NCBI GenBank assembly: GCA_032358255.1
Contig: JAULBX010029046.1
Span: forward strand, 1 to 64,000
Origin: Heterotrichella gracilis
Lineage: Eukaryota; Sar; Xanthophyceae; Tribonematales; Xanthonemataceae
Length of the DNA: 64,000 nucleotides
Direction of reading: 5' to 3'
The notes under the pieces were generated by a model, which was not told where the DNA came from, searched no databases, and saw nothing but the letters and a program-made list of their open reading frames with translations. This document shows, piece after piece, positions 25-61,521 of this stretch. Positions within the stretch are counted from its first letter, which is position 1. The number at the start of each line of letters is the position of its first letter. Made by a program: the position numbers and the translations under genes.

Positions 25-3000
25 CTGGGCGGCAAGGGCGCTAACCTGTGTGAGATGGCGCGCATTGGCCTCAACGTGCCACCTGGCATGACCATCACCA
101 CGGAGGTGTGCCGCGAGTTCTACCGATCGGGCAAGCGCCTGCCAGATGGGCTGTGGGAAGAGGTCCTTGAGGGTCTGCGCCAGGTGGAGGACGCCTTTGG
201 GGCCAAGTTTGCCGACCCAGCCAACCCGTTGCTGCTGTCCATCCGCTCAGGAGCCGCGGTAAGTGAATCCCCCTACCTTCATTACCAAAGGTGAACACCC
301 TTCTTGTACCCTAACCTACACCTCTTGTACCCTTCTTGTACCCTAGAATACCCTTCTGTACCATAGCATACCCCAGCCAACCCGCTGCTGCTGTCCATCC
401 GCTCAGGAGCCGCGGTGAGGGGCATACCTAATTGTACCCTAGCGTGTGGAACCTGCCTTGCGTACCCTCCCCACACCTAATGGTGAGCTGCCCTGTCGAG
501 CATACCTTCTGTACCCTCAGAAATGGACGACCAATTTGGGTGATCATTGAGTGTGGAATTGGTATATGTTAATGCAGCAAAGCCTGCCTCTAGTTTTGAT
601 TAGCAATCCCCACAGCCCAACTTCAGGTCTGGCGACACCGGTGTACTCCACCTTGCATATGTCCCCATATCAATGTGTGTGTGTACATCGTGGTTACACA
701 CTCCCCTCCTACCTTTCAAATCTCCTCCCATGCAATGTTGGATAAACTGCTCAAACCCCCCTCCCTTGCCTCTCATCCCCCCCTTGCTCCCCCACGCACA
801 GCTGTCCATGCCAGGCATGATGGACACCGTGCTCAACCTGGGCCTCAACGATGACGTCGTCCAGGGCCTGGCCGCACGCTGGGGTGAGCGCTTTGCCTAC
901 GACAGCTACCGCAGGCTTCTGGACATGTTTGGAGACGTGGTGCTGGGGCTGGACCACAGGCTGTTTGAGGAGCAGATGGCGGCGCTCAAGGTGGGGAAGG
1001 GGATGCATGCCTGCAAGCGCTTTTTTTATGGATCCCAAGCTGTTGCTGGAGGGATCCCAAGCTGCTCCGGAGCTGTTGCTGAACCTTCAGTTGCATCTTG
1101 GCTTTAGGAGTTTGTTTGGCTTGTGACTCTACGCTATCCACATGGTACCAACCCTTTTTGTAAGTTTGAGTAGAATGACCACCGGTGATACCTTGCGTGA
1201 GGCCTGTCCTCAGCTCCTCTTTCCTCCTCTCTCCTGTCCCCATTAACCGCATCCGCTCCCTCCTCCCCTTTTCCAGGAGCAGCGCGGCCTCAAATATGAT
1301 GTTGAGATGACAGCTGACGATCTAAAGGAGCTGGTGCAGCGCTACAAGAAGGTGTACCTGAGCCAGGGGGTTGCAATTCCGGAGGACCCCTATGAACAGA
1401 TGCGCCTGGCAATCAGCGCGGTGTTCGGGTGAGGCCACATGTGGATGGGTTTAGGGTATAGGGTGTAGGGTTTTGGCCACATGTCTTCCATTTGCCTATC
1501 ATGATTTGGCACCATGTGCAATGCTCAAGTTGACGCTGTAGTATTGGATGCCACGCTGCAATGCATGGTACTGGCTCAACAGCCATGTGGCACCACATGA
1601 GTCATGTCACATGACCATGTCAATGCTTATCAGCTGCTGCTGCTGGCCTACACAATATGGCAACACAATGTATGGTATATTGTATTGAAAATGGAGATCT
1701 GCCGCAAGTAGGATAGAAATCATGGCCTTCCCCTATGTGTTGTTTTGATTGCTTCTATCCTACTGCGGCAGTTTTCCCATCCTCCCCGCCCATCCTCTCC
1801 GCCCCCGTGCATTAATCCCCGCCTCCCCCTGCCGCAGCTCCTGGAACACCCCCCGCGCAGTCAAGTACCGTGAGATCAACCGCATCAGCGGCCTGCGCGG
1901 CACCGCTGTCAACATCCAGTCCATGGTGTACGGCAACCTCAGCGACCGCAGCGGCACGGGTGTGTGCTTCACGCGCAACCCCTCCAACGGCACCAAGGAG
2001 CTCTTTGGGGAGTACCTGTGCAATGCGCAGGGGGAGGATGTGGTGGCGGGTGAGTGGGCTGGTGTTTGACCGTAGACAGAGCTCTGTCAAACGTACACAT
2101 GTACATGGTGCTGCTCTCTGTCCACATGTGGCACTGCAGTCTTGATAGCAAAACAGCAACATTGGTTAACCAACGAGGGTGCGCCCCCATGTACCATTGG
2201 CATCAAATAAATGTGTGCTTACCACACCTCATCTCAAGGATGAGGTTTAAGGGTTTAAATTTTGGTAAATGGTTGCTTTTGCTACTCCTCAGCTGCAGTC
2301 GAACCCGTTAGTTCAATTTGGCCCCTTCCCCTCCCCTTCATTTTATTATTTATTGGGTCCCCTCCCCTCTTCCCTGCAGGTATCCGCACCCCCCTGCCAG
2401 TCTCCCAGATGGCTGACAAGTTCCCCCAGGCCTACACCGACCTGGTGCACAACACCAACCTGCTTGAGAACCACATGAAGGACATGCAGGACTGCGAGTT
2501 CACGGTGCAGGAGGGGCGCCTATTCATGCTGCAGACGCGCAACGGCAAGCGCACGGGAGCGGCGGCGCTCAAGATCGCGGTGGATATGGTCAAGGAGGTG
2601 GGTGGGGAGGCCCTTTTAGGGTTTAGGTGTGGTGCGTAGGGTATGGTGGTGAGGTGTGCTGGAGATTGCTGTGAATGTAGTCTAGTAAGGCAGAAAGCCC
2701 TTGCTAGGGTCTGGAATGGGGTGGTTGATAGGTAGGAGCCCTTAGCTCTCGATTCTCGAGATGATTCAACCCATCTGGTCTAGGAGGCAGGTAATTGCTT
2801 TCCCATGATTCTGTTGGTGTTGGACGTTGGTGACCGGCTAAAATACACACTGTGAAATCAGACCTTGCCCTACAACCCTTGCATGAACCATTCCGCAGGG
2901 TTTCTTTGGCGAGAGCGAGGCTGTGCTGATGGTTGAGCCGCGCCACCTGGACCAGCTGCTGCACCCCCAGTTTGAGGACACCAAGAAATACGCGCCAGAT

Positions 3001-6000
3001 GTGGTGGCCACGGGCCTGGCTGCCTCCCCGGGGGCTGCTGTGGGGCGCATTGTGTTCACGGCTGAGGAGGCGGAGAGGTGGAAGGAAAGGGGGGAAAAGG
3101 TATGGATGGATGAGAGGGGATGGAAAATCAAGGATGGGTCATTGGCAATCCATCATCCATGCCATGCCAGCGGCTGCAGAAGGATGGTGCCATTTCAGGC
3201 AGCATCCGCCCACACCATTCCATTGCTCATCCACTCACAGTACCCTCCCTCGACCCTTTAAGAATCAACTTAAAAAGAATTATAATCTTAGAAATTGCCC
3301 TATTGCCCCGCAGGTCATCCTGGTGCGCATAGAGACCAGTCCTGAGGATGTTGGAGGGATGCACGCTGCGCAGGGCATCCTCACTGCCCGGGGAGGCATG
3401 ACCTCCCACGCGGCAGTGGTGGCGCGCGGGTGGGGCAAGCCCTGCATCTGCGGGTGCGACGCAATCTCCATCGAGACCAATGCTGGCAACAAGATGCGGC
3501 TACGCATCGGGCAGCTGGCACTGGAGGAAGGGGATTGGATCAGCTTGAATGGGACCAGCGGGGAGGTCGTCAAGGGGCAGCAGCCGCTGAAGCGGGCAAG
3601 CCTGTCAGGTGGGACCCAGTGTGATGGATGGTGAAAACCCTTGTGTAGGGTTTTGCTTGCACGATGGTGCAGAAAGCTTGTCTGCACATCACTGGACACA
3701 ACGGCGGCTTGAAGTCCATTTCTGTTGACCTTACATCATTTAAGGCAAGCAATGAACCAAGCATGCCCAACTTCCCCCTTGTCACTGCAGTCCTTTTGCC
3801 TCCCATTGCCTGGCAGTGCTCACTGTCTCCATGAAATGGTATCAAGGCTTTTTGACATGAATTCAACACTGCAGGCGAGCTGGGCCTGTTCATGAGCTGG
3901 GTGGACAAGCAGCGGCGCCTGCAGGTGCTGACCAACGCAGACACCCCAGAGGACGCAATCATTGCGCGCGAGAACGGGGCCCAGGGCATCGGTCTGTGCC
4001 GCACCGAGCACATGTTCTTCAGCAGCCACGACCGCATCGACGCCATGCGCCGCATGATCGCCGCGGAGGAGCTCAACATCAAGGGGAAGTGAGTGAAGGA
4101 GGGGAGGGAGGGGAGGGAGGGGAGGGAGGCGGCCCTGCTGCGGCGCCTGTGCCTGTGGCGGCGGCATCCATATGTTGCCGTGCCACGCTAATCGGACAAG
4201 CTCTTCTCTTGAGTGAATCCTTTGTACCTGAAGGACTCTGTACCTTGATTGGTTCATCAACGCAAAGGCAAATTAAGAAGGTTTAAAACGTTTATTTACT
4301 CCTATGCGCTTGCCCATGTCAACCCATGCCATGGCAGTGCACTTTTCCGATGCCATGTGCCACAAATCCCCGTTTTTTACCAATCCCAACTCGACCCCTC
4401 CCCGCACCCCAGGGATGAGGCCTTGGAGGAGCTGAAGGACTTCCAGCGCAGGGACTTTGAGGGCATCTTCCGCGCAATGGACGGCCTGCCCGTCACCATC
4501 CGCTTGCTTGACCCCCCCCTGCATGAGTTCCTGCCAAAGGAGGGTGCGGCGCTAGAGAGCCTGTGCTCCGAGCTCAGCTCACAGTACACCTCCACCCCTG
4601 ACACACTGGTGGGTTTAGGGTTCAGGGATTAGGGTTTAGGGTACATGCTACAGTTACACTGACAGTAGAAAGCGTCCCTGACTTCAATAGCTGGTTGCCG
4701 TGTGCGTCCCTAAAGGCACACATATGGGACACCAAATATACAATTTTATGATACTTAGAGTGAGTCTACCAGGGTACTGACTACTATGTGCAGTGTCCCT
4801 CTCAAACTTGCAACTATTGGGTACCACTGTTTTGCACAGGTTTTCTTAATACTCACCAGAAGGGAGCATGCTGCAGCATGCTTGACAAACCGCTGTCTAT
4901 TGCAAACACGCTTTGGCATGACCTCCTCAGAATGTTTTTGACAAGGGAAAAGCAACATTTGTTCCATTGCCACAGAGCGTTGAGGTGATGAAGGCCAAGC
5001 TGCACAAGCTTGAGGAGGCAAACCCTATGATGGGGTTCAGGGGCTGCCGCCTGGGAATCGTGCACACCGACATCACAGAGATGCAGGTAGGGGTGGCTCT
5101 TGCATCTCCTGCTGTGGTTCATGCAAGGCAATGCTGTTATTGCGGCAATCATGACCTCTTGATCCAGGATCTAGTCGCCTTGCCTAATGTTTACGGCCCA
5201 AGTTGGACATGTTGAACATGACTTGACTCCACACCAGCACACTACTATACACACTGGGAACCAAACGCCAAACACCATAACAGCTACATAGTCACAGGTT
5301 TGCTCATCTACAGACATTACTGAATCTCCCCACCTCCTCCTTCCACCCAGGTTGCCGCCATCCTTGAGGCCGCTGTGAACGTGTCTGCTGAGGGTTGCCG
5401 CGTGCACCCCCACATCATGGTGCCCCTGGTGGGCATCCTGGAGGAGCTGGAGGCGCAGGTGGAGGTCATCAAGCAGACCGCGGAGGGGGTGTTTGCCGCC
5501 AAGGGGCGGGCAGTGGAGTACTCCTACGGCACCATGATCGAGGTGCCACGTGGCGCGCTGCAGGTGAGGGATACGCTGAATTTAATGCACCATGCGCATG
5601 ACATTTTATTAGCAAAAGTGCCAGGTTTGAGGGGAGGTATGCAATGGGTAGTGAGCATGAACAGGGCGGCCTTGGTGCTAGCTGCGCAGCAGAATATGCT
5701 CCATGCGCATGTTAAGCTGAGGGTTGGTCCGGCACGGGCACTGTCACCCTTACTGACTGTCTAAATATGCATTGAATCTCTGCCACCTCGCTCTTGTCCA
5801 GGCTGGCAAGCTGGCCAAGGTTGCGCAGTTCTTCAGCTTTGGGACCAATGACCTCACGCAGATGACCTTTGGCTTCTCCAGGGATGACGCAGGGAAGTTC
5901 CTCCCCTTCTACGTCAAACATGTGAGTGGTCCCTGGAGCATGCACAGTCATGACAAAACCTTTGTGAACATATTCTGAGATTTTCATTAATTTGTAATCA

Positions 6001-6956
6001 GGTATAATAGAAAATTGCGTGGCCTCTAACCATCTGGTTCTGGAACCAGAACGCACACACACCTGCAGTCCACTCCAGGAATGGGTGACTATAGTTGTAC
6101 CCTAAGCTATATGCATGTGCATTCCATTGAGTCACAGAAGGTCTGCATGCGCGGGCCCCAATTTTGTGGTGAAACTGTTGACATCCACTAGATGGTGACC
6201 GGAACCCTAAACCCTAAAGCCTCCGCATTGCGCAGGGCATCCTCCCTGCCGATGTGTTCCAGGAGGTGGATCAGGAGGGGGTTGGGGAGCTGATTCGCAT
6301 TGCGGTGGAGCGCGGAAGGGCAACCAACCCCGAACTGCAGATTGGCGTGTGCGGTGCGTGGCGGATGGGGGATGGGGGGCTTTGGGCATACAGTGCACGT
6401 TGGGGCAAGGCGCATGGGGCGTACAGTAGGAACGCAAAGTGGATGCATGCGAGGACATATGCCTTGCTTAAATTTGCAGGAACAGCTAGGAAAAACGAGC
6501 AATTGTTTTTAGCACAAATCTTGTACAATGGTCTTTCAATAACATTGCGCTAGTGCTCCCTGGTGGCGCTGGTTGGCCAGGGTAAAAGCGCCGGTATCCA
6601 TGCCAGTGCTACGTGCATAAGCAAGATGTGCAGCCCCACGCCATCCCAGGCACTATGGCCTGGCCTAGCACTGTAAGGGGCACGTCTGTGTGTAATTATC
6701 ATGTGAGCATGCAGGGTACCCAATCAATTATCTCCTTTGATTCAAACCCTCAACCCTCAACCCCAAACATGCCATACCTGTGTGTGCAGGCGAGCACGGA
6801 GGGGACCCCACCTCGGTGACCTTCTTCAACACCCTGGCCATTGACTACGTGTCCTGCTCCCCCCTGCGCGTGCCCATCGCCAGGCTGGCAGCCGCACAGG
6901 CAGCCATCAAGCAAGCAGACACCAAGGGGAATGGCCTGGAGCACTGCCAAGACTAG
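25..6956 (+). CDS. PPDK: Pyruvate, phosphate dikinase (5' end cut by window edge)
   Basis: Interconverts pyruvate + ATP + Pi and phosphoenolpyruvate + AMP + PPi, in plastid or cytosol. Fourteen exons join in frame: 25-258, 802-990, 1277-1428, 1838-2049, 2380-2597, 2899-3099, 3314-3608, 3875-4088, 4413-4608, 4976-5086, 5351-5563, 5802-5921, 6236-6353, 6790-6956, giving 879 visible residues. It opens at [11 protein letters not shown], the start of the ATP-grasp domain, so only about 30 residues plus any transit peptide are missing. The swivelling phospho-domain motif [18 protein letters not shown] holds the phosphocarrier His (visible residue 434), with Thr two residues before it, the position targeted by the PPDK regulatory protein in plants. 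The C-terminal barrel shows [17 protein letters not shown] and GVCGEHGGDP, whose catalytic Cys (visible residue 824) lies at the exon 13/14 junction. All key residues are present. A plastid location is likely but the targeting sequence is outside the window. Confidence 0.97.
371..417 (+). repeat. Copy of the end of PPDK visible exon 1 inside its intron
   Basis: About 45 bp repeat the last 44 bases of the upstream exon and its donor (215-260) almost perfectly; one C/T difference and a gtaagt-to-gtgagg donor change are visible. Using this second donor would read through an in-frame stop at 292-294, so it should not code. Confidence 0.9.
1447..1475. repeat. Degenerate TTTAGGG-like repeat, PPDK intron
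   Basis: Four degenerate telomere-like units start about 20 bases after the exon 3 donor. Similar units sit in PPDK introns at about 2611-2640, 4614-4642 and 6205-6218. Confidence 0.7.
4614..4642. repeat. TTTAGGG-like repeat next to a splice donor
   Basis: Four imperfect units of the plant-type telomere motif begin five bases inside the PPDK intron that follows the exon ending at 4608. Confidence 0.8.
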
Positions 6957-8371: not shown

Positions 8372-10571
8372 TCAGCCCTGTGCCCCCTCCATGCTGAACC
8401 CTGCAGCCTGGGCCTGCGCCAGCTGCTGCTGTGGGACCTGCTGCTGGATCTGGGGTGCGCAGATGGTGAAGGCGGTGGTCTGGGTGAAGGTCTGCGCGAC
8501 GTTGACCGGGCCAGCGATGGCAAAGGCAGAGGCAAAGGCAAAGGCGACCGCGGTACAGTTGCCGTTCTGGGCGATGGTGACGACGGCGGACACGGCTGCC
8601 GCTGCTGCAACGCCGCCTTGGGCAATGGCGAAGCCAAAGGTCTGCAAGTTGGGAAAGAAAGGGAGTGAGTCACAGTGTATAGTTGAGATGGGAACTGGGC
8701 AGCATCAGCAAGTTTTGTCATTCCATACCATGATTGTCACTCACCCCGGGTAGCAAATGGAAAGTGTGCGTGCTATACACTGCGTGTTTTGAATCATCAG
8801 TGCATGTCATGTGCAGTGCCCCACGACTGAGGGGCACCCAATGAGGCACGTACACATAGATGACATACATTCGAGCAATAACTTGTTCACATACATGGCG
8901 CTTCCAATGTAGGGTCTACGGTCAGGAGTCTGTGATGCAGCCGCATTGTCAATCATTGCCCACGAGCATGTCATGAGTGTTCCCTGAAGGCTAGATCTTA
9001 CCGATGCAAAAGCCTGGGCGTTGCTGCCTGAGGTCTGGATGAGTGCGGACGTGAATGCGCTGGCTACCGCCTGGCCGTTACCCGCCTGAGCCGCTGCATT
9101 GGCCATCACCTGGACCACGGACTGGCTGTTGCTGCCGCCTGCAGGCATGTAGATATGAAGTCAGTACTCAGGTACTAGCTGTTGAGGGCTGGGCTGAATG
9201 GGTGAATCCGGTTGCATTTGCCAGCGACTCGTGGCCCGGCGGCGTGGGGCTTTAAATGGTGAGGTGATTAATTACATGGTCCATTATGAGTTATGGCCCA
9301 GAACAATCATTGCACTAAGCCTTGCGTTGCTGTCCTTGATCAACAGGTGCATTGCTTCGATGCTGACTATACATTTTTCCTGAGATCCATAATGAACATC
9401 TATCAGGTCACTACATTAATGCGGTCATTAAATCTGCACTGATGGGTTCCCACCAACTATTTGCCATGTAAACTCACTTGTGATTGCGCTGGTGAAGGCG
9501 TTGGTGACTGCCTGCGTGTTGCCCCCCTGTGCCGCCTGGGCCATGGCACCAGCAGCGGCATCCACCAATGAGGAGTCACCGCTCGCCAGTGTGGAGGTGA
9601 AGGTCTGCGCAAAGGCATTGCTGTTTTGGCCAGCAGACTGGGCCAGGGCGCTTGCAAAAGACTGCGCGATGGTGTTCTTGTCCCCGCCAGAGCTGATGGC
9701 GCGTGTGGCAGTCTGCACTAGTGCTTGGGACTGCCCACCTGAAGAGAGGTAGTGACAAACATACCATGGTTACACATTGCAGCATGGTGTGCGCATGACA
9801 CTGGCAAACAGTCTGTTTTTGATGATAAATCATGCTGGGTCCTGAAATGCACAGTGATCATTGCATGGGGCCTATCCTATGGGGCATGGGGCCTAGCCTA
9901 GCCTGTCGGACAGCGATGCGCAGGCCAGACCAGGCTGAATGGAACAGATTCAACGAGGTTGCAATTAAAAGCAAATGACTAGGCATGCATGCTGTCTAAC
10001 CAACCACCTCAGAACAGGATGTCACACTGCAGAACTGCAACTGCCCACATGGGCAGATCATGATGAAGCACTTACTTGCAATTGCCTGGGTGAAGGTTGA
10101 GGTGAGGGCCTGGCCATTTCCAGCCCTGGCCAGAGCAATCGAGGCAGACGAGGCCATGGCGATGTTGTTGCCAGCCAGGGCAGAGCTGAGGGTATCGGCT
10201 GAAGACATGGGCTGCTGCTGCTGCTGCTGCTGACCGAAGTTCTGACCCTGGTTGCCATTGCCCTGGCCGTTGGTCCGAGAGTTCCCCTGACTGTTGGAGT
10301 TGCCGGCAGCAAAGTTCTGGTCGAGAGGAGGAGGGGGAGGAGAAGAATCAGTCCTACCTTGCTGGTTGCCACCGTTGAACCCATTCTGGCCGAAGTTCTG
10401 TGGGAAGTTGGAGTTTGCGTTTCCAATGTTGCCATTCCTGTTAAACTGCCCATTGCCCCTGTTGTTGCCGAACTGGGCAGCTGCGGGCCCCACCAAGCAC
10501 CATGCCATCAGAAGTGCAGCCATTAGCACCAGAGTGGTGTGCTTGCAGCTGGAGGAGGGAGAGCGAGCCAT
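8372..10571 (-). CDS. Secreted Ala/Ser/Gln-rich silk-like repeat protein
   Basis: Four exons (10571-10076, 9738-9478, 9138-9002, 8641-8372) give 387 residues. The ATG at 10571 is chosen over one 24 bases upstream because it opens a textbook signal peptide: basic start, hydrophobic core LVLMAALLMAWCLV, likely cleavage after AAA-32. Residues 33 to about 120 are Gly/Asn/Gln-rich with a Pro run and a Gln run. The rest is four to five imperfect units of about 43 residues, each with a core like GNGQAVASAFTSAL and mostly starting Ser-Gly; exon 2 holds two units. The last exon is more hydrophobic, has two Cys, and ends in a Gln-rich tail. Two introns are phase 1 and fall on unit boundaries. The style recalls spider-silk repeats (poly-Ala/Ser/Gln helices), but no homology is claimed. 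Extracellular matrix or cell wall is a plausible site; function unknown. Confidence 0.75.
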
Positions 10572-14800: not shown

Positions 14801-17800
14801 AGCCGCGCCTCGCTGCCACGCACATCCACCAAATCCCGGGGATCGTCGCAGAAGGTGGTCAGCATTTCAACAAACACCTGCAGGTCCTGGATGCGATCCT
14901 GGTGGGGGGCGTGTGTGTCAGTGCACTTGTGGGGGGTGATCAGCGCATGGACAATGGATGAAGATTCCCATTGGGATGGTACGATGATGCTAGGCACGCA
15001 GATGATGCTAGGCATGCTCCAAAGGGGTCCAGCTACATGGTGGCGCAGCGTGCATCCCCAGGTAGCCATAGCGCACCCCACTGCATGCTGCATGCCCCGC
15101 ATGAAGATTGTCTAAACCCCACCCCTGTCCCCTCACCTTGAGCTGCTTGTCCTGTTGCTTTGCGCTGTCATACTCCCCCTGCAGCTTGCCCACCCTGGCG
15201 CCCAGGTCCTTCAGCTCGCTGTCCTTGGCCTGGGGGCATGGGGCCACACAAGGATCAAATGGACGTACAGAGTCAAAATGTATCTTTTTTCCATTTCATT
15301 GAATTTATTATTGTTTATAAAGGAAGTCCAAAACAGGAGGATTTTAATACGTCATCGTGATTGTGACAGAAATGTCAATCAATGCCTATATGATGACTTC
15401 TACATCTAAACAATATATGGTAAAGTAGGACCCTGATGGGGATTGTCATGCAGCAGCTGGCCCTAGAGACCCCAACTTATGCAGCAGCTGGTAGGGACTG
15501 ATATGCCGCACCCACCGCCACCAGCGCATGCGCGTCGAGTATCCTCTGCTTTGCCCCATCCACCAGCTCCGCGGCTGTCTTCTCCTGCGCCACCTTGGCC
15601 TGGCACACACCCATCTCCTGCTGCAGGGTGCTGATCATCAGCTTCAGCTCAGACACGGTCTGGGAGTTGCCCAGCTTGAAGCGCTCACCCTGCAGGGAAG
15701 GGAAACCGCAGGGGTGAAGGTTCAAACCCTAAACCCCAAGCCCAGCATAGAGCGCTCGGGGATCCATGCGGCGTGTCCCTAAGTTGCACAAAGCACAGGC
15801 CTCGCAACCGGCTCCTGGAGCGACGGCTACTCCACATTGCGTGCCATTTCTTCCATCGCATGCTCACTGAAGCACTAGGGACCATCCCACAAACCAAGAC
15901 GTCCTCACATCCACCCCATGGTGCCCCTCATGCCCACACCAAGATGTAGCTTGCACTGCGTGTTGCTCCACCCAAACCCCCACCCACCTGCAGCTGCTGC
16001 TCCCAATTCGTCCCTTGTCCTAAAACCCTAAACCCTATTGATCATACATACTATTATCCCCCCCATTCCCCCACCTGCAACTGCTGCTCCAGCTCATCCC
16101 TTGCCCTGGCCAGCGCCTGGTTGCGCTGCTCAAGGTCAGAAACGCGCGCCTCAAGGGCGGGGGCAGAGCGGTGCTGGTGATCACGCGCGTCGAGCTGCAG
16201 GGGAGGGGCAGGGGAGGGGTTTGGTCATGCAGGGGAGGGCATGTGGTTTAGTGGTGTGTAGGGGGGAAAGTACGTGCACACCTAGGATCGAGCTGCGGGT
16301 GGTGGCGGTGATGAAAGGGAAAGGGGAAAGGGGTGGTGATACAGGGTGCTCATTGGCGTGTGTGTGAATGGTCAAGCTGCTGTATCTGATGAATCAATCG
16401 GCAGCTGTGGGGTGGCGCACATGGTGCGATTCTGAGCAATGAGAGCCGAGGCCATGCATGCCAGCTGTGCCCTGGTGATGTCTCCCAGCATGCCTAGCAG
16501 CCCCCCTCGTCATGGGACCACCCCCCTCCCCGCCCGTCCGCATCCCAACCACCCACCTCCCTGTGCAGCAGACCCCCTCCATGCCACCCCCCACTTACCC
16601 CCACCCACCCACCCACCTCCCTGTGCAACTTCTGCTCCTTGAGAAATCGCCCCCTTCACCCGACACCCCCTACCCCCCCACTAACACTCCCCCCCTTTTA
16701 ACACCCCCACCCACCTCCCTGTGCATCTTCTGCTCCTTGATGAAGGCCTGCTCCCTGTCCCGCTGCAGCTCGTGGATGGTGGCGCTCATCTTCTCAATCT
16801 CGGAGGACAGCATGGCCACCTGGCGCTGGCTGTGCTGGAAGGAGCGCGAGTGCTGCACGTGCGCCTCGTCGGCAAGCACCGCGCGCGCGTCGCGCAGCTC
16901 CCTGCAATGGGTTGGGTGTGTGTGTGTGTGTGGGTGTGTGGTGATGGTGGTGGTGGAGAGTGAGTGCTGTATGTGCACCTCGTCGGCGAGCACCGCACGC
17001 GCGTCGCGCAGCTCCCTGCGGTGGGGAGTGGTATGCGTTTGTGGTGGTGGTAGTGGTGGTAGTGGAGGTGGTGGCACTAGGTGGTGCGTTGTGTGTGTGC
17101 GTGTAGAGCGGGTGGTGGTGGCAGTGGGTGGGGAGTAAGTGCTGCAGGTGCGCCTCGTTGGCAAGCATGGCGTGAGCGTCTCGCAGCTTGCGCCATAATG
17201 CCCAGGTCACCCTGACCCCCCATGGTGCACCCTCCAGCAGGCCCCCACACCAAGCGCATGCACGAGACTACAAGATAGTAGTAGCTGGGGAAATTGCAGA
17301 CAAGCCAGTTGCGCTTCGGGGAAAATATATGCCTGTAACCCTCGCCCACACCCTTCAACCCCCCACCCACCTCTGCAGCTGTGCAGCCACCTCCCGCTCC
17401 TGTGCCACCTCAGCGTCCCTGCGCCCCACCAGCGCCCGCAGCTCCTCCAGCTCACCCGCGGCCTCAAGCCCAGCGGCGGCGCCGCCGGAGCCATCCCCGG
17501 GCTTGCCTGCGGGGGCAGGGTTGGTGAGTGGTGGTGCTGGGGAAATGGTGGGTGGCAGTACTGAGTAGAATGTGCAGGGCAAGGTTTGGTCAGCGCTGCC
17601 ACCAGGGGCTGTACAGCCAGTGGAGGGACTGGCAATGGTGGCTGGGGTGGGTTTGAGGGAGCAGTGCATACAGTAGGTCCAGCCCCCCACTGATGTCTGT
17701 GGGGTGGGACATACCATGCACCATCACCGCACCCTGCAACCAATATGTGCTGACCAACCCCGTACCTGTGGGTCCAGTGGTGGAGGCCTTGTCGCCCGCC

Positions 17801-21255: not shown

Positions 21256-24200
21256 TCAAATCCAGTCCCCCTCCTGCAGCTTGAGCGGCAGGTACACCTG
21301 GCTCAGGTACTGGAACCCAAAGCTGGACAGCGCCTGGATCTCAGCCTTCACCTTGGTGCTCACCATCAGCTCAAGCTCGGACACCCACTCGGGGTTGGCG
21401 CGGATGAAGTCCTCCTGGAGCTGCGGGCAGGGGGTGTGGGGGGTGAAGGGAAGGGGGTGTGGGGGTGGGTGGGCTGCTATGGATGGAGTCCTCCTGGAGC
21501 TAGGCAGGGTGGTGGTGAAGGGCGAAGGGTGAAGGGCGAAGGGCCGGGTGAGGGGAGGGTGGATGGGCATTAGGGATGGGGGGTGGGTACACTGAACCGC
21601 CCGTGTGAGTTGCGTGGATTGCGCCATAACCAGGACAGCTCTCACGACCCCCTGCAAACTGCATTCACGCCCAAAAGACATGCAAGGGATTGCCAGCAGC
21701 GGCCAGGGATGACCAACATGCATGCATCCACAGTGTTGACGTGCGCCCCCATGCGCCCCCCCATCCACCCACCACACACACACACACGCCCAAACCCACC
21801 CCTCGCCTTACCAGCTTCTTCCCCGTCTTGATATCCTCCTCCGTCATGGGCAGGCGGCACTGCTGGGGTATGTTGAATCGGTCCAGGTCTGATGGGCGCA
21901 CCCCCAGCCACTTGATGTCCGGGGTGGTGAGGTTGGAGCTGTCGTAGGACATGTTCATGGAGCCTGCGGGGGGATGGGGTTGGGGGGTGAAACCCTAAAA
22001 AAGGGTCTATAGGGTAAACCAGAGAATTTTGGGGTCAGAAGCTTGGGACCCAACCTGTCAACCTTCCCGCGTGTGGCACCAATTACACTGCTAACCCCCT
22101 CGTGCGCACGATTTGCCCTCTTGCGTGTGATCAAGAGTAGTAAGATAATATTAGTTCTATTTGTCATAGTATTTGTAATCTGCCGTCATGCATGTGAGCC
22201 CAGCCCCCACTCACCCCTTCATGCACCCCAGTACCCCAGGCCTCCTCCCCCTTTCACAACATCCCCCGATCTCACCTTTCATGTACACCGACAGAATCTT
22301 GAGGCCGTAGGGGTCGGAGTCCACCAGCGCCAGCACAGGGATCTGGAGGGTGTGCTTCAGCTTACGCAGGAACAGCCTGGGGGGGTGGGGAGGATCGGGG
22401 AAAGGGTGGATCAACTGTGTAGTTGATTATGTGCGAAATTAATTATGTACATTAGCAACGTTACTGGGGCTGCCGGCAATCCCTCAGCAGGTGAAAAGTT
22501 CAAGTATGCACACATATGAACCATGCTTGCAAGCTGTGTTTGCCACTGGTGCTGCATGCTCCAGATCCAGCTCACGCAACCCCTTGCACATGCACCGCTA
22601 GCCACATGCACCCCTTGCATCACACACATCCTCCACCTTGCCCCATGCACCCCATATGCCACATGTCCCCAGTCATGTGGGCAAGCTAGCGCCAACCAGC
22701 TGTCCCTCCCCCCGCAACAGCCCCCACCTTGTGGCCACGTCCGGCTGCCCCTTTGCCGTGAGTATGATGCATGGGTAGGTGTTGTAGAACCTGTCCTCAG
22801 CCAACCGCATGAAGGCTGCATCCTTCTCGACAAGCAGGATGAACAGCGCGTCGCTCACGATGTGGTCAACCTAGGATTGAAGGGTATATGCGGTTTAGGG
22901 TTCAGGGTTAGGGTTTCATGCTTGGCGGGTCATCAACACAGGGAGGGGTGAACAGCGCATCGCTTACTATGTGGTGAGTCTGAGAGTGGGAGGGGTTGGG
23001 GTGGGGTGGGAAAGGGGAGTTGGCAGTGAACAGCCTGCGCTGGGGGTGGATGAGGGGCGTATGGGACGGAAGGCAGTCACAGAAAAATAGAGCATGCTCA
23101 GAATGAATGCATGTAGGGAGGTATTGATGCAGGATGGGTGGAGAAAGGGGGCAGCTGATTATCAGAGGACAGCACAGGTGGAGCATCCATCCCCTGTTCC
23201 CCTCCTAAGAATAGCCCACCCACCTGCTGTAATCATTATTATTATAAATTCAGACTAGCCCACCCACCTTGTCGACGTTGGGCGGCACCGCCTTGCCCCC
23301 CACGCCCATGCGCGTGCAGTCTATGAGGTCGCCATCCTCCCTGAAGCTCAGCCGCCCAACCACCACACCCTTCTCGGAGGCAACCACTGGGGCAGAGGGA
23401 GGGGGGGGTGGAGGTGGGGGAGGGGGAAGGAGGGCAGGGTGGAGATTGGCGCGTGGGGCATGCACGGCTGGGGATGGCACGAGTGGGGATGCAAGGATGG
23501 TTCACAGGGATTGTACATCTGACTCTATGGCGCATTTGACTTGCCCACCTATTACTGGTTACTACACATGGGCGGCATGCAATGCACCCATTGCAAGCAA
23601 ACATTTCACCCCATGCCTCCACATGATGGCACATGCATTGTTTCTTGAGTGGGTGTTGGGGAGGGGTGGGGGGCGCACCGTGCAGGCTCGACCGCGTGCA
23701 GCCCAGCATGCAGGCCACGTCATCCAGCACCGAATCAGAGTTGCCCTGGTCCTGTAGGGGAAATGGGGAGAAAGGGGTGAGAGATACACAGCACAGGGGA
23801 AGCATTCAAGGGTGATGTCCATGGTGCAGTCTTTGGGTGATTTTCAGCCAGTGCGGCAGAATAAGAACATATACCATCAAATATCAGCAATATGTTTAAA
23901 AATCAGTAACAATGCCACCCACAGCCACATCCACACCCAGCCCCACACCAACCATCCAGGCGCGCCCACCTCGAACAGCTTGACGTCAGTGTAGAACAGG
24001 TCACGCTTGGTGACGTGAATGCGCTTGTTGCACAGCTGATGCACCAGCTCCAGCACCCGCGTAGTGATCACCGCTTTCTTGCACGTGGAGGTGTGCGAGA
24101 AGGCGCGCGCGCTCACGCTGTCCCGCAGCACGATGCGGTCCAGCTCAGGGACGTACAGCTGGTTGCCCTGGTGGGGTGAGGGGGTGAGGGTGTGTGGGGT

Positions 24201-25366
24201 GCATGTGCTGAGGTTGGTGTGGTGGTGGAGGCGGAGGGGGAAGGGGAGGGGTTCCATCACGACAGATTTTTTGCAGAAAAGCGCATGCTCACACTCGCGC
24301 AACACAAACTGGTCCCATTTTAGGACTGGTGTGGGAGTGAGTAGGAGAGGGGGAATGGGGGGGTAGGTGGGTGCACAAACCCTAAACCCTGAACCCTAAA
24401 TCCACTTGCCGCATGGTGGCAGAGCGTACTCGTATGCTAACCCTAACCCTAAACCCTAAACCCACGTTGGCGCAGGGCGTATCCCAAACACTCAACCCCA
24501 GCCTCACCATGGCGTGCAAGGGCAGGGCGTGTCCAAACCCTAAATTCTAAGCTTACCTTGGCACGGGATGGGAGGGCGTATGCAAACCCGTCGCCCTTGA
24601 GTATGGTGGCTGCAATGCCCAAAATGGCGGCCTCGATTTCATCCAGCACAGCCTGCGGGTCCTTGTCCACCACCTCTCGGCAAGCGTGGGGTAGGTTCAG
24701 GTCGGCAAGGGACCTGGGGGAGGCTTTAGGGTTTAGGGTCTGATGGTCAATGGCGCCGGGGTTAGAGGTATTGCGAGCTGGTGGATGGGGGCAAGTGGTG
24801 CTGGTACAGTGTGCAGTGGGGTGGTCCGGGCGAGTGCGTGCATGGGATGACGTGTGGGGCAGTGGATGGTCAATAGTTTCCTACAATTTTGAATAGCTCA
24901 GACGATAAGTTTGAACCGTTTCAGCTTGAGATGGCCAAGTGCAAGCCGGCTCTTATGGAGTTGCTATGAAACATGCAAGCACCTTACAACTGCGGATCTA
25001 TGCAGCGCTCGGATACAGTACAGCAGTGGCCACCGGTGCATTCGTTCACTACAACATGCATGCATAGGGACTTGCTCGAGTGCAAGATGCATGCATATCA
25101 TTACCGCTGCTACGGCTCGCTGTGCGCTCAGCGCTCACCTTTGAACCTCTGGTTCTGCTTTCAACTTGACGGCTAACTTTTTCACAGCAGCAAGGACGTC
25201 CTGCGCGGGAAGTTTGAAGATAGGGTCATGGAACATGATTTCACGGTAAGCCATGCTGTCGTCCAGAACAAGGGCGACATACCTCCGCGGTTTTGATTTT
25301 CTTTTTGGCTTTCAGGGCGATCTCTTCCGCCTCATCTAACCGCTTCCGCCCGGCAGCCTTCGACAT
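21256..25366 (-). CDS. TOP6A: DNA topoisomerase VI subunit A (SPO11-3/TOP6A type)
   Basis: Ten exons (25366-25283, 25200-25139, 24713-24557, 24167-23970, 23751-23679, 23386-23268, 22870-22728, 22376-22276, 21963-21812, 21420-21256) give 417 residues, against about 427 for plant SPO11-3. The start [12 protein letters not shown] and a Lys-rich stretch precede the winged-helix domain. [13 protein letters not shown] carries the strand-cleaving Tyr160. The Toprim metal site is Glu246 (LLVEKDAAF) with VDSDPYG at 297-303. [17 protein letters not shown] and the end [16 protein letters not shown] are diagnostic for the plant TOP6A branch rather than meiotic SPO11-1/-2. With subunit B it makes an ATP-dependent type IIB topoisomerase in the nucleus, needed in plants for endoreduplication. 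Intact. Confidence 0.96.
21481..21508 (-). repeat. Copy of the start of TOP6A last exon
   Basis: About 27 bases resemble 21402-21428, including the exon's first bases and acceptor region. It lies 60 bases upstream, in the sense of the gene, of the real acceptor. Confidence 0.7.
22945..22976 (-). repeat. Copy of the start of TOP6A exon 7
   Basis: Thirty bases repeat 22836-22868 (reads HIVSDALF on the minus strand) with four to five changes. TTAGGG-like units at 22893-22915 separate copy and original. Confidence 0.85.
24402..24552 (-). repeat. Degenerate tandem copies of the end of TOP6A exon 3 with CCCTAAA units
   Basis: About three copies, with a rough 50-base period, repeat the donor end of the exon 24557-24713 (minus-strand AGGGCGTATGCAAACCC-like core at about 24410, 24475 and 24525). 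Runs of CCCTAAA are interleaved (24440-24462, 24536-24545). Confidence 0.75.
24725..24739. repeat. TTTAGGG repeat just upstream of a TOP6A acceptor
   Basis: Two perfect units lie 12 bases beyond the minus-strand acceptor of exon 3. Confidence 0.8.
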
Positions 25367-26282: not shown

Positions 26283-29200
26283 TCACTTGAACACGTCTGC
26301 CAGTGGGTTCTTGGGCATTGGGTTCTCTGCCTTGTGATTCTTGTGCCGCACCCGCGCCTGCACCTTGTGAGCGTACTTGCCACCCGCCTTCTTCTTCAGC
26401 ATAGCCCGCACCTGCAGAGGGGGGACCGAGTTGATGAGTGCCTAAATTATACTTCGGGATCACACCACATACAAATAAACAGACATACATATGCATGCGT
26501 GCAACGGGTGATGTCACCGGGGAGGGATCCACCAATTGGGGGGGGTGAGTGCATTGCGCTGAGCGCTCAATGTGATGGCGATGCATGTCACATTCAAGGT
26601 CGAGGGCATTTGATAAGTACTTTCAATGGCATTACCGGCAGCAGCTGAGCACCATACAATGCTTGCATCTCAGCATTTCCACCACCACATTTTGGTTTAC
26701 CACTCGCAAAAGTGTGTTTGCAATGGTAGCACATGGTTAAACAGTGCGCAATACAGAGGGGATGCAACATGCCCAAGGGGTGCGTACCGTGTTGGGTGAG
26801 ACGTAGGACGGGTTCTCGTAGATGACTGGCCCCCCAAAACTGCCAGCAAACATCTTGATGGGGTTGAGGCAGCAGCGAGGGCCAACCTGCAGCCGCCACA
26901 TGACACACGATCCGATTAAACGTTTTATATTGAATATTTAAATATAAGGGATAAAGTTTTACTTCTCTGACCAACCAGCACTCATGGCTAGACAATACAT
27001 ACCACAGGCCATATACAACGTCTTCACACCTGGGTCATATAACACTGTCCTAACCCCCTTCCCTCCACCCCACCCCACCCATTCCTATAACCCCCTCCAC
27101 CAGACGGGATTGCAAACCACTCATCAAAACCATGCGCCCACCACCCGCCTCCCACCCACCCACCTCCACCAGCGACGCGCTGTCCGCGCGCGCCTTCTTC
27201 TTGTCCAGTGGCGCTAGCAGCTGGTAGTTGCGCATCCACACGCGGCCGTCGGCCAGCGCAAACACCACCACGTGGTCGAAGAAGGGCTTGCTCTTGTGGT
27301 GGCCCTTGGGGGTCACAAAGAACTGCAGCAGGAGGGGGGGTTGATTGATGAAAAGGATAGGGGAGCATGCTCATGCAGAGCACGTTCTTTCCATACGCGG
27401 GGGTCACAAAAAACAGGAGGGAGGGTGTGAATGGTAAAAGGATAGGGGAGCAGTATGCTTTTTCCATTACTGTGATTGGGTTCTGCTGTGGGTGTTGATT
27501 GATCTTGTGGATGCGCCTGGGCGTAACAAGAACATGTGCAGGGGAATGGACGCAACCCACGTAGATGTAGATGGTAGGTGAAATAAATGGTAAATGGATA
27601 AAGGGAAAAGAGTAAGTGTCATATTAATGTGCAGGGGGATGAGCGGCTTCACATGCATGCGTACCAGGGTGGCAGTACACGCCAGGAACTTCCCATAGGA
27701 GTTTGTGCGTGCACGCAGTTGTCCAGGCAAGGGGATTGGGGTATCAGAATCTGGGATGGATGCAAAAACTTGTATCCCAGGACACTGTGCTTGATGTAGG
27801 TCTGAGGCCCACCCCAAATCCGTCCATGCGATTAAATTGGACACTAATGATTGCAAATGTTTATGTGGTTGATTCCTGCCACGGCGATGCAGCATGCGTT
27901 CCATTGTTCAGGGTTTATAGTTACCCACCTGTGTCAGCATCTCCTTGAGCAGCTGCAAGTGGGGCTCGCCGTCAAAACCCTGCAAGCAAAGGTGAGGGTT
28001 TCAGGGATTAGGACTTCGGGTTTGCATCTTAAATGTCTCAACCAAAGCATGTCAACACCCTCTGCACACACCAGACATCCCTGGCCAAATCCCGCCCCAG
28101 CACACACTTACGTGCACCATGATGCAGGCCATGCCGTAACCGAAGTACATGCAATCCTCTAAGACACACCCTGCCCATCTGAGTCAGGCCCAACCACCTC
28201 GCATGCATCGACACGATCATACCATCCCTAACTCAGCCCTCACCGAGTTCCCCATTAAAGCGCCACCGCACCCCGCCCACCTGCCCACTTCATCAATGAT
28301 TGTCCCCCGCAACATCAATAATTGTCCACCACCACCTCTTCCCAGATAAAATTACCCGTGCCACCCCCCACCCCACACACACACCACTCCTCCTCTCCCG
28401 CCTTACCGCATCAAACACCAGCACCGGCCGTGAGCCCTTGAGGTGGTTGCCACTCAGCTTGAGCTCGGCCATGGTGTGGACTGCACCACATACCAGGGGG
28501 GTCAACGGGGGTACTCATGCAAAACACAAGATTCATCATCATCATTATAATTACTTGTGATCACAAGATACCATAGTAATAACAGACTCGGATGCATCCA
28601 GTGGACGTAACAGTGCAGCATATGCATGTACACGCAAGCATGTAAACCTGAGTTAGCCAGTCCCCCATAGCTGGAACATAGCGTGGGCTGGCTTCATCCC
28701 AACGAGGGATGGACTACTACCCTAAGTAAGGTCTTGCTGCGCCATGGGCCTACACCCATGGCACCTTGCGCAGTGTGCGCCCATGGCTGTGGCGCCCCAT
28801 GGGCAACAGTGCAGTAGTGCAGCAGCAAGACACGTACTGTTTGCCACGTGGAACTTTGCCGAGGGGCCATTTGGCGTCTTTGCCAGCCACATGTACAGGT
28901 CCTTCTTCTTGCGCGCCTCAAAGAAGATGACGGAGGAGCAGCCCTGCAGGGTGGGTGGGGGTGGTGGTGAGCGGGTGGTGGTGGTGGCGGCGAGTGGGGT
29001 GATCTGACACCGCCCAGTGCCATACTCAGTGCCATGGATGTGCAGGGTATGGGAAGGATTTTATCTCCGCCAGGAGAGTTTCTTGATGAAAAGCGCGTGT
29101 GACAGTTGGGACAATCACAGCCGTGGCCTTCACATCGTACAGGGGTAGGTAGGGTCTTCCAAGCAACTGGGCTAGGGTTACTATTAGGGTTTCCCCCACC

Positions 29201-58724: not shown

Positions 58725-61521
58725 ATGATGGGCCTCAACTATACACTCTCCGTATGGACAGCTTGGGTGGCAATGAGTTTGGCCGTTGGCCACGGCAGCG
58801 TTATCTTACAGGTGAGCTCGCGCTGGGCAACACGTTTGGTATATCGGTTCACTTCTGCTCAAGCGGGGTTGGTTTCGCAAGTTGACTAAAATCCTCATGA
58901 CTAACACACGTTGGGTTCACCCTCAGACTGGGAACCTTACACTGGACCCCTTCCCTGACATGCCCGCTGACTTTGGTTCCAGTATTCCAGACAGTGGCAG
59001 GCAAGGCTTGTTGGTGGTAAGTACTCAATACAGGGTGTGCACCAAAGCGTGTGCATATGCATGCATATGTGGGAGCTCTTGGGCAAGTGCACCGCCTTGC
59101 GCAGACTCAGAACGGGTCTATCTTTTGCACCTTGAGCTTCAAATTGCCTTGACATTGTTCAACAGTTGTTGTGCCAGTGCCGAGGTTGCAACCACATACA
59201 CCTTGTTTGGGCACACAGGTTGCAGACCCCGAAGACGGGTGTTCGCCATTGAGGAACGCTGTGGTTGGGCCGTTTATCCCACTCATTGTGCGCAGTCAGA
59301 AGGTTCCCAGCAACTGCACTTTCGATGTCAAGGTACGATGAGGTGGCATGCTGCAATGAAAATGCGGAAAATACTTTATATGGCGCAACACAGCGCAACA
59401 CGCATATACTTGCTTTTTTTATTTTTATATGATGTTTTGTCCATCAACATTCTTGTAACAAATATCCTGGCATTCATGGTGTACGTTCAGACGGTTTCGT
59501 TCCCTCATGCCATTTGTGTTCACATGAGCGCAGTAGGCATGAGCAGCATGCATAAGTAACAGTGTGGCACAGTACTGGCGGGCACCAATGGTTTTCTGCA
59601 GCGACGTGTGGCACACTGCAACAGAATAGCTTGTAACACTTTGCTGGTGGTCAATATAATCACGGATTTGTCCTGTGCAGGTGCACAACGCCGAGATGGC
59701 GGGCGCAGTGGCGGCAATAATATACGACGATGTGTATGAGTCGCTCATCATCATGTCCAAACCCATAGACCACGCAGACCCAGGCATCCCCGCCGTGTTT
59801 GTGACGCAGCGGACGGGGATCCTGATGAAGAAGCTGATGACTCCGGGTGTCACATGGGTCTTCATTACTCCAGTGAGTACATAGAGGGATCACTGATCGC
59901 TTGCATTTTGCATATCGTGATCAGCGGTGTCTTATATAATCCCTGTGGATCTCCTGCACTCTTTGGTCGGCATGTTGCATGCCGATTTGCTGAGCCTTGC
60001 CAGTTTGCATGCTGACTCATGGTGGTCCATTGACAGATCTCGGAAGCCGCTTGGATCTCGATGCTGCTCAGTTCATTTGCCGGAGTGCTGGCGGTGGGTG
60101 TGGTGGTTGCGACCTTCTACTTCATACGCCGCCATCAAGTGCGTGCGCTGCCCACCCGCATGGGGTACAGCATGATGTCCACTCGCCCAGATGGCATGTC
60201 AGCAGCTGAGCTGCGGGCGCTGCCTGTAGTCATCCACGAGCCCCACCATCGGACTCATGAACCGGGTACGTTTAGGGTTTAGGGTTTGTAAGGGGTTAAT
60301 TATTGTTAACACTGCCAGCGCCATTGGTGTTGGTTGGGTGATGCATGACGCAGACAAACGCTGTGTGGGATGCACTTGGTGTACGCTGGTGACTGATACC
60401 TGGTGTTTTGGTCGCAGACGACATCGAGATTGGGTTCAGTGACAGTGACAGTGATGGGAGCCACATTGGGCGCAAGGGCGGGGGCACACTGAAGACCTGC
60501 GCCATATGCATCGAAGAATACAAGTACGCCTCCTTTACATTTACTGCAGTTCCCCTACATCATTCAGGGGTGGACATGTGCCTTGCCATGGCATGTGATC
60601 TCTGGATACTGTGTCTAATATATAGAATGCGTGGCAGAATCTGCATGCATGCTGATGCAGTATAATACCATTGCAGGGAGGGCGAGAAGCTGCGCGTGCT
60701 CCCATGCAAGCACCGCTTCCACATGGAGTGCATTGACCAGTGGCTCTCACAGCGGAGGCCGCTGTGCCCTGTGTGCAAGCACGACGCCACCCAGCCTCTG
60801 ACAAGCGATTCGGAGGGGGAGGAGGAGGAGGATGTGCAGCAACAGCCAAGGGTGCCGTTTGCCCAGCAGATTGCAAGGTAGGGACCGAGCTGGTGTGCCC
60901 CAATGCATTGCACAGCAGGGTGGTCTACAGATACCACGAGACTTCAATTTTTTAAAGCTTATGACGATCCTCCTGGTGATGCAATGAGGATGTGGTGCTG
61001 TATGCTATTAGTCTAGAGCGCTGGCAGTTATTCGGAGGTTGCAGGGGCCATTGCTGGCTGTCCAATGCTGATTGTGAAGCTGTCACATGTCCAGCTAGTT
61101 ATTAAATAATTTACATGCATTCCAGCAATACAGCCAGATTAGCAGTCGGTCTGTTACATGCCCAGCTAATTTCAATGTTGTGTGCAGGCTGCTGTCGTTG
61201 CCGTGGACCCGCCCTGTCCCCATCTCGCCTTCACCTCAACAAGGGCAGCAGGCAAGCTCCAGCGCACAGAGAGGGTTTGCCCCAGAGTCAGCTACACCCG
61301 ATAATTTTCCCGGTATGCATTACACTCGCCGCATGGCTCAGGCTGTAGCAGTTGCTGCTGCGGATGATGGTGATGCTGGTGCCGATGGTGGTGAAATCAC
61401 TGCTGCACCTGAACCTGTGGACCCCAATGATCCTGGCACAGCAGAGGTCATGGGTGTGGCGGCATCAGCTGGTGTGGCGCCGCGTGTTGGACAAGCTGCG
61501 GCCAGCCTGCCCTCTGGGTGA
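58725..61521 (+). CDS. PA-TM-RING E3 ubiquitin ligase (RNF13/RMR type)
   Basis: Eight exons (58725-58811, 58927-59016, 59219-59332, 59681-59872, 60037-60265, 60418-60523, 60677-60877, 61188-61521) encode 450 residues. Order: signal peptide (about 1-24, core [17 protein letters not shown]); protease-associated lumenal domain ([26 protein letters not shown]); one membrane span around 167-190 ([20 protein letters not shown]); an acidic Ser-Asp stretch; a RING-H2 finger from Cys265 (CAICIEEY, then [16 protein letters not shown] and CPVC); and a long, mostly disordered Ala/Pro/Gln-rich tail. All eight zinc ligands are present. In animals and plants such proteins sit in endosome/vacuole or secretory membranes, as ubiquitin ligases (RNF13) or vacuolar sorting receptors (RMR). 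Which applies here is not decided by sequence. Confidence 0.93.
60270..60289. repeat. TTTAGGG repeat four bases after a splice donor
   Basis: Nearly three perfect units inside the intron that follows the exon ending at 60265. Confidence 0.85.

Follow-up and report, generated by a model that had tools for sequence, protein, structure and literature searches.

Introduction

Intron lengthening, and the differences in intron length between lineages, are usually ascribed to transposons or to slippage. Among the reports that come closest to the observations below, Pace et al. (2009; PMC2671141) attribute to break repair a set of 824 human cases of linked duplication of up to 619 bp, with filler of 1–68 nt: 295 of the 824 copies are intronic, four of the 824 donors comprise partial exon/intron sequence, one of the two whole-exon copies is inverted, and two duplicated exons that were tested showed no coding constraint. 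In mammals, telomere repeats can be inserted at double-strand breaks, an event attributed to telomerase (Nergadze et al., 2007; PMC2246262), and a study of human and horse loci (PMC7215372) ascribes the duplication of the flank seen at three of 66 horse loci to staggered breaks. The presence of 31% of human interstitial arrays in introns is called compatible with random insertion (PMC2246262, PMC7215372), and interstitial telomeric sequences are reported to be breakage-prone (PMC11626172). In mammalian cells, CST-guided fill-in by Pol α-primase at breaks with 3′ overhangs makes small direct tandem duplications (PMC8355091) and, in the potato RdRp gene, a tandem genomic duplication involving splice signals gave rise to intron gain (PMC4974935).

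Here we analyse copies of exon edges within the introns of an alga, starting from a 64,000-nt stretch of its genome (the window). These duplications are like those of Pace et al. in that source and copy are closely linked (42–407 nt apart, compared with up to ~600 nt in PMC2671141). They are unlike them in that 68 of 88 copies found in a junction-anchored search span an exon–intron junction, against four of 824 partial exon/intron donors, in that no inverted pair occurs among repeats less than 300 nt apart (at score 50), and in that a telomeric word lies beside about half of the copies. As with the mammalian interstitial arrays (PMC2246262, PMC7215372), we find short internal arrays of the genome's own telomere repeat, TTTAGGG, which, unlike the human arrays as described there, have an intronic density about four times that in intergenic DNA, peak near splice sites and mark tandem duplications. 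The head-to-tail, direct arrangement of the copies and the tandem intron part that many of them retain recall CST/Pol α fill-in, the accessible account of which (PMC8355091) is mammalian and makes no mention of telomere filler, whereas here the organism is an alga and the seams are telomeric; since CST is a telomere complex, a link of fill-in to telomere repeats is plausible. The potato RdRp case (PMC4974935) is one of intron gain, whereas here existing introns are extended. In the open-access literature, among the matches listed, no title or abstract opening dealt with telomere repeats as the seams of tandem duplications in introns, or with telomere repeats in introns for any alga.

Experimental procedures

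The source genome (68.5 Mb in 903 contigs, the window being a stretch of contig C651) is that of a photosynthetic eukaryote, probably a green alga, in which the chlorophyll a/b-binding family is matched 43 times. The DNA scanned amounted to 284 kb and consisted of the window, L003 and another 21 stretches of 10 kb each, drawn from twelve other contigs, with L004 and L005 (from the bacterial contig C1), L027 (81% N) and L001 and L002 (which overlap the window) excluded ahead of counting. L004 and L005, from C1 (894 kb), have 36% GC, and the long intronless ORFs in L004, of Bacteroidota type by eye, point to an associated or contaminating bacterium in the assembly.

Gene models came from a single program working on DNA sequence only: a purpose-written 13-state model that included profiles of donor and acceptor sites, started from five PPDK exons picked by eye and was self-trained on the 284 kb. 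It returned 452 exons and 400 introns, 397 of which were used once introns less than 100 nt from the end of a stretch had been omitted. Every boundary of the five seed exons was recovered but one, the first exon being extended at its start to the window edge. Five proteins predicted in affected stretches were compared with Pfam, which supported four of them (lipin LNS2, E = 5e-79; Rft-1, 2e-112; DUF389, 2e-30; pyruvate kinase, 3e-74) and gave no match for the fifth. The names PPDK, BRE1, TOP6A, BRX1 and golgin were given by eye. In the window, the model fused to the BRE1-like gene a Q/N/G/A-rich, low-complexity and secreted-looking protein (8375–10548), which is probably a separate gene.

For the cases named in the window, each local direct repeat was scored against 200 shuffled neighbourhoods. 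In the scan of all introns, the terminal 60 nt of the exon together with 12 nt of intron were compared with the exon's own intron (search reach ~800 nt), and swapped introns provided the null.

Direct copies of exon edges in the window

The preliminary description of the window had reported exon ends, with their splice sites, recurring in the adjacent introns of five genes. We found the local direct repeat to be real in every one of these, golgin included, with none of 200 shuffles reaching any of them. In PPDK (forward strand), where the repeat had been placed at 215–260 and 371–417, correctly to within a few bases, the pair measured here is 216–263 and 372–419, gapless and identical at 46 of 48 positions (score 86, against 28 for the best of 200 shuffles). 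The source, 216–263, comprises the end of exon 25–258, an exon end that the gene model places here too, and the donor GT at 259–260, and the intronic copy, 372–419, lies 156 nt downstream with its own GT at 415–416. The intronic portion of this first unit, 264–371, is rich in TACCCT-like words and contains one exact telomeric heptamer, at 308. Its alignment to the stretch beyond the copy scores 18 (8.4 ± 1.9 for 500 random intron pieces), but homology is ambiguous because a TACCCT-rich minisatellite, judged by eye, is common to both sides, and the similarity may reflect this shared minisatellite instead. Read-through past the exon end at 258 reaches a TGA at 292–294, so that a transcript left unspliced at this donor would yield a truncated protein. 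The gene model took the PPDK copy for an exon (367–414), and for this reason it is missing from the 88 copies counted below.

In the BRE1-like gene (reverse strand), exon 16715–16897 has been copied from both its sides. On the donor side, the source 16706–16740 (exon end plus donor) recurs in the downstream intron at 16608–16642 with 34 of 35 letters identical (score 65, 0 of 200 shuffles), and a short third copy at 16549–16567 matches 16707–16725 at 19 of 19. On the acceptor side, the exon start and acceptor (16841–16928) are repeated in the upstream intron at 16955–17043 (74 of 88 identical, one gap), and a second copy, 17138–17188, matches 16849–16899 at 44 of 51. One BRE1-like copy, having been called exon by the model, is also absent from the 88. 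On the same strand, the TOP6A-like gene carries the start of exon 21259–21420 with its acceptor (21402–21455) again at 21481–21536 (47 of 52 aligned letters identical, four gaps), and the BRX1-like gene the start of exon 27164–27322 with its acceptor (27308–27367) again at 27399–27452 (49 of 53 aligned letters, three gaps), the junction being spanned in both. A second TOP6A-like source, 22837–22866, is confined to exon 22728–22870; its copy in intron 22871–23267, at 22946–22975 (26 of 30 identical), is separated from it by telomeric heptamers whose first letters fall at 22892–22910. The junction-spanning copies previously reported for BRE1, TOP6A and BRX1 are thus all present. The golgin gene, listed with them, does not belong there, since one of its pairs (49068/49151) is entirely intronic and the other (46315/46408) looks by eye like a coding coiled-coil repeat.

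Frequency and spread of the copies

At a score of at least 40, the scan returned copies for 37 of 397 introns on the donor side (0.2 expected from swapped introns) and for 30 of 397 on the acceptor side (0.15 expected). When several per junction were allowed, the count rose to 88 copies, distributed over 65 junctions and 57 of the 397 introns, with fewer than one expected; 68 of them reach across the junction by 2 nt or more, as found by a junction-anchored search, and one, at 46351 and counted in the window, is the doubtful golgin repeat. Copy and source are separated by 42–407 nt. Copies occur in 11 of the 13 stretches examined but their spread is uneven: 20 of 62 junctions bear them in L022 (the lipin stretch) and 11 of 62 in L012, as against four of 226 in the copy-poor window together with L003, none of 54 in L020 and none of 16 in L026. 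Exon-edge copying is therefore not confined to the window. The preliminary description had suggested a lineage-wide process and had named a scan without excess over matched random segments as its refutation; over 284 kb of the 68.5 Mb, the scan gave the opposite, a strong excess over swapped introns.

In the lipin gene, intron 6521–7182 of L022 contains copies of the exon end at 114, 264 and 378 nt. The copied exon end holds the DVDGT motif, which we take to be catalytic, and a comparison of 19 whole codons shows the first copy to differ from the exon at five synonymous sites only.

That the copies are errors of assembly might be thought from the 19 of 88 that are at least 95% identical to their source. 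Identities nevertheless range from 72 to 100%, the flanks differ in the 14 copies viewed, and telomere heptamers stand at the seams, all of which makes such an error extremely improbable.

Direct tandem units of two spacing classes

Local repeats at score 50 are exclusively direct at short range, with 118 direct and no inverted pairs at 30–300 nt and 12 direct to two inverted at 300–600 nt. The spacing of successive copies is bimodal, with classes at 97 ± 20 nt (59%) and 186 ± 27 nt (41%; BIC 930 for two classes versus 946 for one). Among 65 testable copies that span a junction, 35 also show homology in the unit's intron part (6% by chance), and about half are therefore tandem duplications of a unit that exceeds the visible match. 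These data support the tandem duplication across splice junctions proposed in the preliminary description. Homology of the intron part is no commoner in the closest copies (six of 12 at identities of at least 95%, eight of 17 below 85%), and some copies at 90–95% identity lose homology within ~10 bases of the donor, where plain tandem duplication predicts otherwise.

Copies that stop abruptly just past the splice site would suit another origin, in which proximal DNA is captured during synthesis-dependent break repair, as in vertebrate repair-mediated duplication, rather than produced by fill-in of staggered ends. It would also accord with the sizes, proximity and filler, which are similar to those of the human duplications in Pace et al. 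(824 cases; PMC2671141). Capture should, however, yield inverted copies as well, against the 0 inverted and 118 direct pairs found below 300 nt, and it does not lead one to expect the homologous tandem intron part in 35 of 65. We consider this origin unlikely.

An exon boundary is involved in 107 of 128 local direct repeats (0.84, two pairs classed as 'other' having been dropped), whereas the junction-spanning share was 0.38–0.46 in a simulation of random duplication that spared coding sequence and omitted units containing a whole exon or a whole intron. Part of this preference is a detection effect, because selection freezes the exon sequence, which stays recognizable for longer; only 16 of the 65 spanning units are detectable through their intron part alone. 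When calculated by hand from 76 loci at junctions and 13 elsewhere, the bias-corrected share is ~0.6. Targeting of splice junctions, as read from the repeats alone, was rejected, since most of the excess over the simulation is detection bias, and on this evidence the preference for junctions is modest at most.

Fate of the copies

Over the 65 testable copies, the synonymous share of the differences between exon and copy is 0.452 (0.37–0.52), compared with the 0.428 expected when the copy is neutral and the exon constrained, and the 983 codons in the 88 copies include five stops. Splice dinucleotides are retained to an extent similar to that of neighbouring bases (GT in 35 of 49, AG in 24 of 31), and distances from source to copy are not enriched in multiples of 3 (15 of 51 donors, nine of 37 acceptors). 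Given these neutral-like substitutions and the loss of splice sites, the copies behave as neutral debris. The spare splice sites to which attention had been drawn thus exist anatomically but decay neutrally, and a copied donor outscores the real one in only three of 35 cases, a comparison biased by the model's own selection of good donors.

Were the copies functional alternative exons, or splice-site decoys under selection, one might point to the gene models, which call some of them exons (that of PPDK among them), to copies such as that of lipin, which differ nearly only at synonymous sites, and to a synonymous share of 0.507 (0.40–0.61, versus 0.428) where the intron part is not homologous. 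The pooled share, a retention of GT no higher than that of neighbouring bases and the lack of an excess of spacings in multiples of 3 speak against selection, and we reject this explanation as highly improbable, because substitutions and splice-site retention look neutral. An early split by hand had indicated constraint on sharp-ended copies; the formal bootstrap, which gave the interval just cited, did not confirm it.

Introns with copies have a median length of 425 nt and those without, of 292 nt, in line with the earlier proposal that copies lengthen introns. The same source had mentioned tandem duplication across a splice junction as a proposed route to new introns. In this genome, such creation finds no support: at score 40, only four of 333 introns on each side are bounded by in-register copies of the exon end, a signature that is visible in recent births only and whose four instances are possibly gene-model artefacts. 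Introner elements were likewise rejected, the 397 introns yielding two similar pairs once telomere-like letters had been masked and pairs from different stretches only were counted.

Telomere repeats in introns and at the seams

TTTAGGG, of plant type, is the telomere repeat of this genome, arrays of it being present at the termini of contigs C70 and C140. The genome also encodes a TERT RNA-binding domain. A three-unit array has 834 exact matches genome-wide (overlaps and chromosome ends counted), and the reversed pattern has none. The five commonest 7-mers of the introns are all rotations of TTTAGGG/CCCTAAA, and the 158.5 kb of intron contain 1667 telomeric heptamers (10.5 per kb, as against 0.8 in exons and 2.7 in intergenic DNA); relative to words of the same composition, the ratios are 9.7 in introns, 1.2 in exons and 2.5 in intergenic DNA. 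At least one heptamer is present in 173 of the 374 introns of up to 900 nt.

The positions of telomeric patches reveal a preference for splice junctions separate from that of the repeats. In 257 introns of 220–900 nt, patches reach 4.8 per kb at 12–60 nt from donors and 4.2 per kb at the same distance from acceptors, compared with 2.4 per kb in the interior, and the 193 of these introns without a detected repeat behave similarly (3.0, 2.8 and 1.3 per kb). Three control words showed no comparable rise near splice sites in introns of 220–900 nt. Examples in the window are the PPDK patches at 4611–4642 (exact TTTAGGG rotations), which begins 2 nt inside the intron that starts at 4609, and at 6203–6218, 17 nt ahead of the end of intron 5922–6235; a patch at 60270–60287, 4 nt inside the intron starting at 60266; and a cluster at 24377–24463 in TOP6A-like intron 24168–24556.

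We then considered the seam, that is, the exon-side end of the copy. A heptamer lies within 45 nt outside it in 43 of the 88 copies, or at 29 of 65 junctions, whereas the fraction at the same offsets is 0.11 for introns free of copies and 0.23 for other introns that bear them; the remaining 45 copies have no exact heptamer so close to the seam. Where at least 90 nt separate seam and splice site (57 copies), density in the first two 15-nt bins is 58.5 and 73.7 per kb, against 6.7 and 6.1 in copy-free introns. PPDK, with its nearest exact heptamer 57 nt from the copy, is a poor example of this tagging. Starting instead from the patches, with telomere-like letters masked, 79 of 186 (score 32) are flanked by a local direct duplication, as against 0.115 of 920 random intron points; the share exceeds that of the control in 11 of 13 stretches, by a small margin in L008 and with the largest numbers in L012 and L022, and the excess is nil or slight in L026, L016 and L008.

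Might these words be splicing elements, such as branch points or enhancers, beside which generic tandem duplication or slippage has taken place, the link with seams being incidental? At 15–30 nt from acceptors, the C-type orientation far exceeds the G-type (29.2 versus 1.8 per kb), a dominance that fits, and is likely due to, use of CTAAA as branch point or exclusion of AG. At the same distance from donors, the two orientations are nearly equal (18.2 and 16.6 per kb), unlike an RNA element, and an RNA signal is therefore unlikely there. Moreover, the enrichment at seams exceeds that at matched offsets in both copy-free and copy-bearing introns and extends to seams at least 90 nt from the splice site. 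An incidental association of this kind seems to us quite improbable.

Another possibility is that the arrays are cause rather than consequence, interstitial telomere arrays already present in introns being fragile, with breaks there and duplication of their neighbours on repair. Arrays are indeed common near splice sites even in repeat-free introns, at the densities given above for the 193. Among the 51 readable junctions (of 65), 24 have an array at the seam and 13 at the far end of the last unit; some arrays must therefore have belonged to the duplicated unit. An array that was already present at the edge of the unit should nonetheless be found equally often at the seam and at the far end, whereas the discordant cases are 11 with an array at the seam only and none with one at the far end only (p = 0.001), and fragility leaves the origin of the arrays unexplained. 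Arrays as the cause are thus a rather doubtful explanation, although the far-end arrays speak for it.

No strand polarity was apparent at donor seams, with nine introns of C-type and eight of G-type. Extension of both ends by telomerase predicts that TTTAGGG precedes CCCTAAA where arrays meet within 40 nt. This prediction failed, with nine cases for and 17 against; when patches of a single heptamer were left out, four were for and two against.

Proposed mechanism

In our preferred interpretation, introns in this genome probably grow by recurrent short tandem duplications that arise from break repair, with telomere repeats as filler at the seams. The direct-only tandem units and their telomeric seam filler fit the repair of staggered breaks. 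A break with long staggered ends, its nicks ~97 or 186 nt apart, would occur at or near an exon–intron boundary, and fill-in of both overhangs would leave two direct copies of the intervening stretch. Joining of the ends would then enclose, at the seam, telomere repeats that telomerase had most likely added to a 3′ end. Precedents exist for every one of these steps (PMC8355091, PMC2246262, PMC7215372, PMC2671141). Where the duplicated stretch spanned a splice site, a fragment of exon and a spare site would come to lie within the intron, to be spliced out with it and to drift neutrally.

More speculatively, telomerase could be one of the chief drivers of intron lengthening in this lineage, acting at breaks near splice junctions whose overhangs are filled in and whose seams receive telomere repeats; much of the intron sequence would then be layered duplication debris, and the 1:2 ratio of ~97 to ~186 nt would reflect chromatin spacing of the nicks. 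This extended version is a tentative one, which we put forward with less confidence than the repair process itself. If true, break repair, telomerase and intron evolution would be joined in one testable process. The telomere tag at about half of the seams makes events recognizable, and countable, after the copied exon has decayed, and spare splice sites, naturally present in large numbers and at graded ages, lend themselves to the study of how the spliceosome chooses the right one.

Repeats in intergenic DNA

Five repeat pairs are intergenic. One of them, at 8901–9325 of L025 (18901–19325 of joined L024 and L025), is a near full-length tandem duplication with a unit of 218 nt and 80% identity. 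In the window, an inverted repeat occupies the intergenic segment 19405–19629 between the BRE1-like and TOP6A-like genes, with 61-nt arms that are 92% complementary, a 24-nt loop and outer arms.
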